From Saonia flava (GTDB lineage: Bacteria > Bacteroidota > Bacteroidia > Flavobacteriales > Flavobacteriaceae): a DNA stretch of 64,000 bases. The translations under genes were made by a program, and so were the position numbers. Below, piece by piece: positions 61,078 through 63,551 of the stretch. Every line of letters starts with the position of its first letter. Within the stretch, counting starts at the first letter, position 1. The notes beneath the pieces were generated by a model. That model did not search any database and was not told the DNA's origin. It saw nothing but the letters and a program-made list of their open reading frames with translations. Location of the stretch: the NCBI RefSeq assembly GCF_011927795.1, contig NZ_JAATJJ010000001.1:2233062-2297061 (forward strand). Direction: 5' to 3'.

Positions 61078-62511
61078 CTAAAACTTAAATTTTATTCCAC
61101 TATACACACCTATGGAATAGGGTTGAAAACTCCCTGAAGCTTCTGAAAAGGTATTCAGATGATATTTAAACATGGGTTCCACATTAAGCTGTGTCTTTGG
61201 TGTTATTTTGTAATTGATTCCAAAACCAATATTGGTACTAAAGTTTATGGGGTTTATATTGTTGGCCTCACCCATTTCGGTGGATAGCCCATCGGATTCC
61301 AATACTATATTGTTGTCCATAAGAAACATAGAGCTAACTCCTCCAATTAAATTTACCCCCAACTTCTTATCAACTAGTGCATAGTTCAATTCTAAGGGCA
61401 TTTCTAAATATCCAAATTGTTGTAACATGTTGCCGTTCAAAGCGGGAGCAGATGCAGAAGTTTCATTGTCCACAAAAGACTTAGGCTTTAAACTACTCTC
61501 TACCACAATACTTCTGGAACTTTTGGAATAGTTGATATTGTCTATGTCCGCTGTACCGTTCAACGTTGATGAAAAGGCAATATCATTGGTATTGTATCCA
61601 TAATCTGCACGATGTATTCCAGAACGGATACTTAATTTTTTGCTAATATCATAAGAGACATTAATACCAAAGCTTAAGTTTACATCACCAGATTTGGAAT
61701 TGGAAGCAAAATCCGAGTCAATAGGAGAACCATTGCCAATACTATTGTAATATACTGGGGCAATGCTTGGGCCAATAGACCATCTTTTAGAATTGTTTTC
61801 CACGATTGCCTCTTCGGCGTTATTTTCTTTTATCTCATCAAGAAGTGATTTTTTAGATGATTTTTCTAGAAGATCTTCTTTTTTCTCTTCCCTTTGAGCA
61901 ACCGTATTTTCCTCATCTTTTATAAGAACTGTATTGACAGTGTTTCTCTTTTCATTACTGGAATCCGCAAGATTGTCCGCATTCACAACGACTTCTTTAT
62001 CAACAACAGACGAAAAATTATAACTATCGGTATTTTCTTGCGAAGCCATTCCGTCAGATTCTTCCCTAGAACTATTTGCCAAGTCGGGTTGACTATTTTT
62101 TTCGGTCTGTTTTTTAGGAATATTTATCGAATTATTATCACTGGAGCCACTATTTTTATCGCTGGAATTGACGTCATCGTTAGTAACCACTGCACTCTCA
62201 TTCTCCGTAATTGGCACAATCAAATCTTTATTCGAATTTGGTTTCTCTTTGTTGACTGGAATTGTTGTATTTTCAATATCAGTTGTGATGGGGTTTGTGG
62301 TATTATCGTCTTTAAAAGGGTTGATTATATAAAATAAAATGGCCAATAGCGCGGCTATGCCTCCAAGTCTCCACCATATGGGGATAACTTTTCGGTCTTT
62401 TTTCATATTGTCCAAGGAAACTTCGATAGATCTCCAGACTTTCTCATCTGGAATCTTTTCAAAGTCTTTAAACTTTTCTTGAAACAAATTGTCCAAATTC
62501 TTTTTGCTCAT
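61078..62511 (-). CDS. Envelope-spanning protein: anti-sigma-like N terminus, membrane helix, linker and outer-membrane beta-barrel
   Basis: A 477-residue protein of unusual build. Residues 1-45 are charged, helical and lack a signal peptide (LFQEKFKDFEKIPDEKVWRSIEV), like the cytoplasmic arm of anti-sigma factors. A single membrane helix lies at about 47-65 (WWRLGGIAALLAILFYII). A ~170-residue low-complexity linker, rich in N, S, D, E and K, follows to about 240. The C-terminal ~235 residues are amphipathic beta-strands (SIGPSIAPVYY, SYDISKKLSIRSGI, LNVEPMFKYHL) ending in a terminal phenylalanine (SGIKFKF), the pattern of an outer-membrane barrel. Its gene follows the ECF sigma gene by 12 bp, so it may control that sigma factor directly. 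Confidence 0.8.
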   Translation of the reverse strand: MSKKNLDNLFQEKFKDFEKIPDEKVWRSIEVSLDNMKKDRKVIPIWWRLGGIAALLAILFYIINPFKDDNTTNPITTDIENTTIPVNKEKPNSNKDLIVPITENESAVVTNDDVNSSDKNSGSSDNNSINIPKKQTEKNSQPDLANSSREESDGMASQENTDSYNFSSVVDKEVVVNADNLADSSNEKRNTVNTVLIKDEENTVAQREEKKEDLLEKSSKKSLLDEIKENNAEEAIVENNSKRWSIGPSIAPVYYNSIGNGSPIDSDFASNSKSGDVNLSFGINVSYDISKKLSIRSGIHRADYGYNTNDIAFSSTLNGTADIDNINYSKSSRSIVVESSLKPKSFVDNETSASAPALNGNMLQQFGYLEMPLELNYALVDKKLGVNLIGGVSSMFLMDNNIVLESDGLSTEMGEANNINPINFSTNIGFGINYKITPKTQLNVEPMFKYHLNTFSEASGSFQPYSIGVYSGIKFKF

Positions 62512-62523
62512 TTCTCTGATGCG

Positions 62524-63084
62524 TTAGGCAATGTTTATGCTTTCTTTTTCGATTTTTTCTTTTAATATCATCCTTGCTCTTGCAAGATTGGATTTTGATG
62601 TGCCTGTGGACGTTCCTAAGAGTTCGCTTATTTCCTTATGGGAAAATCCGTCCAGGACATAAAGGTTAAAGGTTGTTCTGTATTTGTTTGGCAGTTCCTG
62701 TATATAACCAAGAAGTGTTGCTAGACTAATATCTACATAACCACTTTCAACAGTAGTTTCTTCCTCATAATTTTCTGAAACTACATTTAAATGTTCTTCT
62801 TTTCTATATTTCTGTAAAACCGTATTTACAGTAATTCTTTTTATCCACCCTTCAAAAGAGCCTTTTTGGGAGTATTGGTCTATTTTGTTGAAAATGGTCA
62901 AGAAACTATCATGCAGGTTGTCTTCAGCCTCGGTCTTATTTCGAGAATATTTTAGGCATACACCGAACAGTATACTAGCATATTTGCGGTATAGCTGTTC
63001 TTGGGCTTTTCTATTTCCCTTCTTACAATCGTGTATGAGCCTATCTAAACTCAAAATATTGGTTAGGTATTTAGTTTTTAGCAC
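62524..63084 (-). CDS. ECF-type sigma-70 family RNA polymerase sigma factor (second)
   Basis: A 186-residue ECF sigma with region 2 (KGNRKAQEQLYRKYASILFGVCLKYSRNKTEAEDNLHDSFLTIF in pieces) and region 4 (GFSHKEISELLGTSTGTSKSNLARARMILKEKI), joined by an acidic linker. It starts at a GTG immediately after the lipoprotein stop (TAAGTG). It lies in a three-gene operon: lipoprotein, sigma, barrel protein. The C-terminal SxG-type recognition helix is of the group common next to barrel-type anti-sigma proteins in Bacteroidota. Confidence 0.95.
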   Translation of the reverse strand: MLKTKYLTNILSLDRLIHDCKKGNRKAQEQLYRKYASILFGVCLKYSRNKTEAEDNLHDSFLTIFNKIDQYSQKGSFEGWIKRITVNTVLQKYRKEEHLNVVSENYEEETTVESGYVDISLATLLGYIQELPNKYRTTFNLYVLDGFSHKEISELLGTSTGTSKSNLARARMILKEKIEKESINIA

Positions 63085-63504
63085 TTAGTTTACTGGGATG
63101 TCTACCTCTATAAATTGAGGATTTCCATTTTCATCTTCCCCACTCCAAAATTTAAAATGATATGTATCTGAATATAACACTTGAAAATCAAAAGAAGTTT
63201 GCACTTCTTGGTTTACTTCGACACAAGTTGTTTGATCTGTAAAAACAGACCCAACAACCACAACCTCCCTTGTGGTCTGGTCAACTTTGATTACGTCAAA
63301 ACCTTGAAAAAATGTACACTCATCAGACCTAAGATACGTAACATTAATTTGATAGGTGTCATTAACATCAAAGGATTCCGGAACCTCAACTTCAACAATC
63401 TGTAAATAGGCAAATTCAAAATTTGCGTCATCATTGTCCAAGCTGCAAGACCCTAAGGTTATGGCGGCAAATAAGGCAACCATATAGAAAAACAACCTCT
63501 TCAT
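63085..63504 (-). CDS. Hypothetical lipoprotein heading the second ECF operon
   Basis: A 139-residue protein with a lipoprotein signal (MVALFAAITLGSC, cysteine at about 20) followed by SLDNDDANFEF, then predicted strands of an Ig-like fold (FDVNDTYQINVTYLRSDECTFFQGFDVI, VNQEVQTSFDFQVLY). Two or three cysteines in the mature part could form a disulfide. I do not recognise a family. It is the first gene of the operon and abuts the sigma start codon. An extracellular or periplasmic ligand-binding role is only a guess. Confidence 0.78.
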   Translation of the reverse strand: MKRLFFYMVALFAAITLGSCSLDNDDANFEFAYLQIVEVEVPESFDVNDTYQINVTYLRSDECTFFQGFDVIKVDQTTREVVVVGSVFTDQTTCVEVNQEVQTSFDFQVLYSDTYHFKFWSGEDENGNPQFIEVDIPVN

Positions 63505-63521: not shown

Positions 63522-63551
63522 CTAAAGATGAAAATTAAAAATAAAGGTTGC
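63522..63551 (-). promoter_or_regulatory. Candidate ECF-dependent promoter of the second sigma operon
   Basis: On the minus strand: GCAACCTTT (63551-63543), a 12-bp spacer, then CATCTTTAG (63530-63522), ending 17 nt before the lipoprotein ATG. The GCAACCTTT plus CATC/CGTC pair resembles promoters I recall upstream of autoregulated ECF operons in Bacteroidota. No TAnnTTTG is present. Confidence 0.4.

Follow-up and report, generated by a model that had tools for sequence, protein, structure and literature searches.

Results

Genes and features of the locus

The window, the whole stretch of Saonia flava DNA analyzed here (64,000 nucleotides), covers positions 2233062-2297061 of contig C1 in a 3.80-Mb genome. 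Its placement in Flavobacteriaceae agrees with family-wide searches and with the named relatives Flagellimonas, Allomuricauda, Maribacter and Arenibacter. Between positions 61078 and 63504 of the window lie three genes, not one: a lipoprotein gene, an ECF sigma factor gene and an anti-sigma factor gene, dma. The features are as follows:

63526..63551, minus strand: predicted ECF promoter GCAACC-N15-CATCT, about 21 bp ahead of the lipoprotein ATG
63085..63504, minus strand: small conserved lipoprotein gene, 139 aa, first gene of the operon
62524..63084, minus strand: cognate ECF sigma factor gene; its product and the Bacteroides-type ECF encoded next to nigD and dma are reciprocal best hits
61078..62511, minus strand: whole dma gene, 477 aa
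62380..62511, minus strand: Dma residues 1-44, cytoplasmic anti-sigma arm with helices 3-14 and 23-38 and invariant W26
62323..62379, minus strand: Dma residues 45-63, the only helix in the inner membrane; it follows a K/R-rich segment and starts with a WW motif
61792..62313, minus strand: Dma residues 67-240, disordered, acidic, Cys-free tether with a short helix near 223-238
61081..61791, minus strand: Dma residues 241-477, 8-strand outer-membrane beta-barrel of OmpA/NspA/OmpW size, terminal Phe

The original prediction placed a 477-residue product with a terminal Phe 12 bp past an ECF sigma gene, and all of these details proved exact. On the minus strand recA is followed by lipoprotein-ECF-dma, an order that is fixed in Flavobacteriaceae, and the sigma gene lies upstream of dma in 30 of 30 loci. 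The neighborhood comprises recA, an acyltransferase gene and trpS. The annotated sigma start is the GTG at 63084. However, the real start is probably the TTG at 63054, because in the family alignment the N-terminus of the homologue at locus L049, MSLEELI, coincides with this codon.

The operon lipoprotein carries acidic residues after the lipid Cys, which suggests export to the surface, and has two further invariant Cys (C63 and C94). It matched no named family. We considered and rejected a NigD identity: its NCBIfam NigD score was 14.5 bits against a cut-off of 60 bits, and the alignment was limited to the lipobox region (34 columns).

Architecture of Dma

Hydropathy of Dma showed a single N-terminal peak, at residue 45, and no N-terminal signal peptide, as had been claimed together with the single membrane helix. 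When AlphaFold (AF2) was run on Dma with 30 homologues, helices appeared at 3-14, 23-38 and 45-63, pLDDT stayed below 50 at 67-219, and a high-confidence barrel occupied 244-476. The disordered linker of about 170 residues is thus borne out, within a tether that runs from 67 to about 240. The C-terminal part is predicted to be an outer-membrane barrel and not a periplasmic-only fold: Pfam OMP_b-brl_2 (PF13568) matched over its cut-off (33.7 against 27 bits), and Foldseek grouped the barrel with OmpA, NspA and OmpW. At E 0.01 the Pfam barrel match was found in 23 of the 30 homologues.

These 30 homologues, from 30 genera, are conserved at both ends. Mean identity to the window Dma was 57% over the N-terminus and 54% over the barrel, against 15% over the linker. 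Linker length ranged only from 168 to 226 residues (mean 197 +/- 14). Unconserved sequence with kept length is the pattern that a spacer joining two fixed ends would be expected to show. The membrane helix is conserved throughout the set, Cys is absent in 30/30 and the terminal Phe is present in 29/30. Within the barrel alignment there is a variable stretch between strands, at about columns 455-530.

Predicted docking of the arm on the sigma factor

To model docking, the sigma factor and the arm were folded as one natural chain, an in-frame read-through with the TAA as a residue, using 48 sequences. The pLDDT of the arm helices rose from 59-73 alone to about 87-96 in the chain that also holds sigma (pTM 0.75), in a model whose covalent 5-residue link itself favors contact. 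Both the charged anti-sigma-like arm of the original prediction (44 residues) and its contact with sigma are supported by this model, in which the helices order only beside sigma.

The modeled sigma was then compared with known structures by Foldseek (TM by query length). Values were 0.38-0.43 for SigW-RsiW, CnrH-CnrY and RpoE-NepR, 0.31 for sigmaE-RseA and 0.21-0.31 for initiation complexes. In the model the sigma domains therefore resemble the arrangement in several inhibited sigma/anti-sigma complexes, not that in initiation complexes. As predicted for Dma, the sigma domains in CnrH-CnrY and RpoE-NepR are held by a short helical arm. These two systems are not known to have a periplasmic tether or an outer-membrane barrel.

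Distribution of dma

Dma homologues were found in 104 of 121 Flavobacteriaceae genomes, sampled at one genome per genus save one, so the ORF is not a chance one. dma is a near-core gene of the family. Most of the 17 genomes without it are 1.3-2.6 Mb in size. Outside Flavobacteriaceae, homology is mostly confined to the arm and tether.

Several variant arrangements were also seen. The same genome has a possible split form at L018:362-2821 (C1:1420600-1424900), with an ECF gene, a 244-aa anti-sigma factor similar to Dma in arm and membrane helix, and a separate 362-aa exported protein. Locus L092, from another family, has the same gene order. In one genome of the Flavobacteriaceae (L084:1498-2154), the N-terminal part of sigma is fused to the barrel end of Dma in a 218-aa ORF beside rpoD, apparently by internal deletion. 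L089 and L093 come from a different family within the order; there, open frames of 750-775 aa that follow an ECF gene begin with a similar arm and membrane helix.

Promoter and predicted regulon

In the first locus set, GCAACC-N15-CATCT precedes the lipoprotein gene in nearly all loci. In a second collection, the exact motif precedes the operon in 76 of 77 named Flavobacteriaceae loci, and the control gave 0. Counts over whole genomes follow dma: the 104 genomes with dma have 462 sites against 37 in the control, and the 17 without it, mostly small genomes, have 6 against 4. The partner sigma of Dma would thus be the factor that reads this promoter. Inspection by eye of the nigD-ecf intergenic regions of two Bacteroides-type loci did not show this motif.

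Four exact N15 sites occur in this genome and none in the reversed control. They precede the dma operon, a gene for a 123-aa lipoprotein, a family-2 glycosyltransferase gene (PF00535), and a segment divergent from recA, ahead of trhO. We attempted to extend the regulon with one-mismatch sites and dropped them. They were not above control in this genome (34 against 32), so only the exact motif core is informative. The two sites with a 14-base spacer were dropped as well, one being inside a gene and the other having no gene right after it.

To characterize the wider regulon, we sampled 40 sites outside the operon. In 19 of them an ORF of 100 aa or more starts 15-39 bp downstream. All 19 ORFs matched a loose lipoprotein pattern (background about 10%, Fisher 1.8e-16) and 13 matched a strict one (background about 9%, Fisher 1.2e-8). 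The pattern is a crude regular expression whose loose form was widened once matches had been viewed, so the strict 13/19 is the safer figure. The lipoproteins of the predicted regulon are probably surface-exposed.

The recA-side site lies between recA and trhO just outside the window, at L196:220-455 (C1:2297719 onward). The segment after this promoter is short and ends in a hairpin and T-run, with a z of -5.65 against shuffles of the sequence from this genome. An automatic terminator scan of L196 found none; the hairpin and T-run are nonetheless visible and fold. In 9 of 15 genera the segment contains an ORF of 30-31 residues whose product ends in (C/F)K(A/S)DGG. No Rfam family came near its gathering score for this transcript. 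We consider the segment a candidate for a sigma-dependent small RNA or a micropeptide.

Relation to known systems

Proteins with the Dma layout are known from gut Bacteroidales. Reo of Phocaeicola and Dma1/Dma2 of Bacteroides have been demonstrated or proposed to sequester an ECF sigma factor, which is freed when they are inactivated (PMC9308784, PMC13114119, PMC13088901), and that work takes the full-length protein to span both membranes. The proposal of a sigma-holding protein of two membranes finds support in these published proteins of the same architecture. In Phocaeicola vulgatus and Bacteroides fragilis, the EcfO-Reo system likewise encodes the anti-sigma factor after sigma, next to a lipoprotein gene. 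Its regulon of small surface lipoproteins, three of them NigD, and an LPS glycosyltransferase is like the one predicted here (PMC9308784, PMC13114119). Dma1/Das1 and Dma2/Das2 of Bacteroides thetaiotaomicron match the window system in anti-sigma domain, membrane helix, long tether, barrel and adjacent partner ECF (PMC13088901). Compared with Dma1/Dma2, the system described here is near-core, forms a recA-linked lipoprotein-ECF-dma operon, and has lipoproteins that are not NigD.

The NigD family led us to two Bacteroides-type genomes for comparison. In both, nigD adjoins ecf-dma and is transcribed divergently from the ECF gene, whereas here the lipoprotein gene opens the operon. The window sigma and the Bacteroides-type ECF beside dma and nigD are reciprocal best hits among the ECF factors of these genomes, with 36% identity over 168 columns. 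Similarity was weak between the barrels (E 5.7e-5) and marginal between the arms (E 0.055).

Discussion

We conclude that the window protein is a Dma-type dual-membrane anti-sigma factor working as proposed, with a probability of roughly 0.85. Its architecture, conservation, operon and promoter, the predicted docking and the predicted lipoprotein regulon come directly from the computation. The protein kind itself was already described in gut Bacteroides. What is new is its near-universality in Flavobacteriaceae, the sharp promoter and the predicted lipoprotein regulon.

The mechanism would run as follows. On the cytoplasmic side, the two-helix N-terminal arm would bind the ECF sigma factor. 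The membrane helix would anchor the chain in the inner membrane, the flexible tether would cross the periplasm, and the 8-strand barrel would act as the sensor in the outer membrane. We infer that the protein really sits in both membranes, what the signal is, how sigma is released, and that this sigma reads this promoter. Our best guess for the signal is failure of barrel insertion or a disturbed outer membrane. It would most likely be relayed down the chain by periplasmic and then intramembrane proteolysis, or else by a change in tethering, and sigma would be freed. Free sigma would then transcribe the GCAACC-N15-CATCT promoters, namely those of its own operon, the lipoproteins, the envelope glycosyltransferase and the putative small RNA beside recA. 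Transcription of its own operon would be positive autoregulation that also makes new inhibitor.

The main rival to an insertion-state signal keeps the same protein and topology and takes the barrel as the receptor for a specific outside ligand, such as a glycan, a toxin or a siderophore. The authors of the Dma2 study proposed glycan sensing (PMC13088901), and the variable stretch between barrel strands would suit a receptor. However, what induces Reo is envelope damage caused by BcpT (PMC9308784), and near-universal presence in diverse genera with a lipoprotein and envelope regulon fits general envelope state better. We regard a ligand receptor as possible and not as the probable answer.

The promoter could also belong to another shared ECF factor and not to the partner of Dma. 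This seems unlikely, since the motif stands exactly before the operon in nearly every locus and falls to control level in genomes without dma. ECF factors, moreover, usually autoregulate. In favor of another factor are the 29 sigma-2 domain matches in the genome and the overlapping ECF regulons suggested in Flavobacterium psychrophilum (PMC9723704).

We think it quite unlikely that a periplasmic cut shortly after export turns the chain into an ordinary anti-sigma factor and an independent barrel with no continuous link. The almost unconserved linker sequence and the possible split loci L018 and L092 would agree with such a cut. Against it, linker length is constrained, about 100 genera retain the fusion, and the Bacteroides work treats the full protein as one that spans both membranes.

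FecR-type cell-surface signaling, with a separate TonB receptor touching Dma in the periplasm, is common in Bacteroidota and likewise combines an ECF factor, a single membrane helix and a periplasmic domain, but we rejected it as contradicted by the tests made: as the original prediction had anticipated, Pfam found no FecR domain in Dma and the neighbors include no receptor pair, and the C-terminal part of Dma is a predicted barrel.

With Dma taken as a dual-membrane anti-sigma factor, the findings can be joined into a wider proposal that we hold at about even odds. Flavobacteriaceae may have one core system of outer-membrane surveillance. The Dma barrel would report the state of the membrane. 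The sigma factor would drive ACGCAACCnTT...CATCT promoters (spacer exactly 15, almost invariant) and so produce variable, probably surface, lipoproteins and the recA-side small RNA, joined in several genera by a 30-residue peptide that ends in CKADGG. Such a system would be the counterpart, on a single two-membrane sensor, of the E. coli sigmaE-RseA-DegS response with its small RNAs. Common to the two are stress at the outer membrane, an ECF sigma factor, envelope genes and perhaps a small RNA. In E. coli, however, a separate protease senses unassembled porins, whereas here the barrel belongs to the anti-sigma factor itself.

Dma proteins have been known from a few gut Bacteroidales. The near-universal flavobacterial version makes the questions of sensing, release and lipoprotein function testable outside the gut, and the precise promoter could be used as a reporter.
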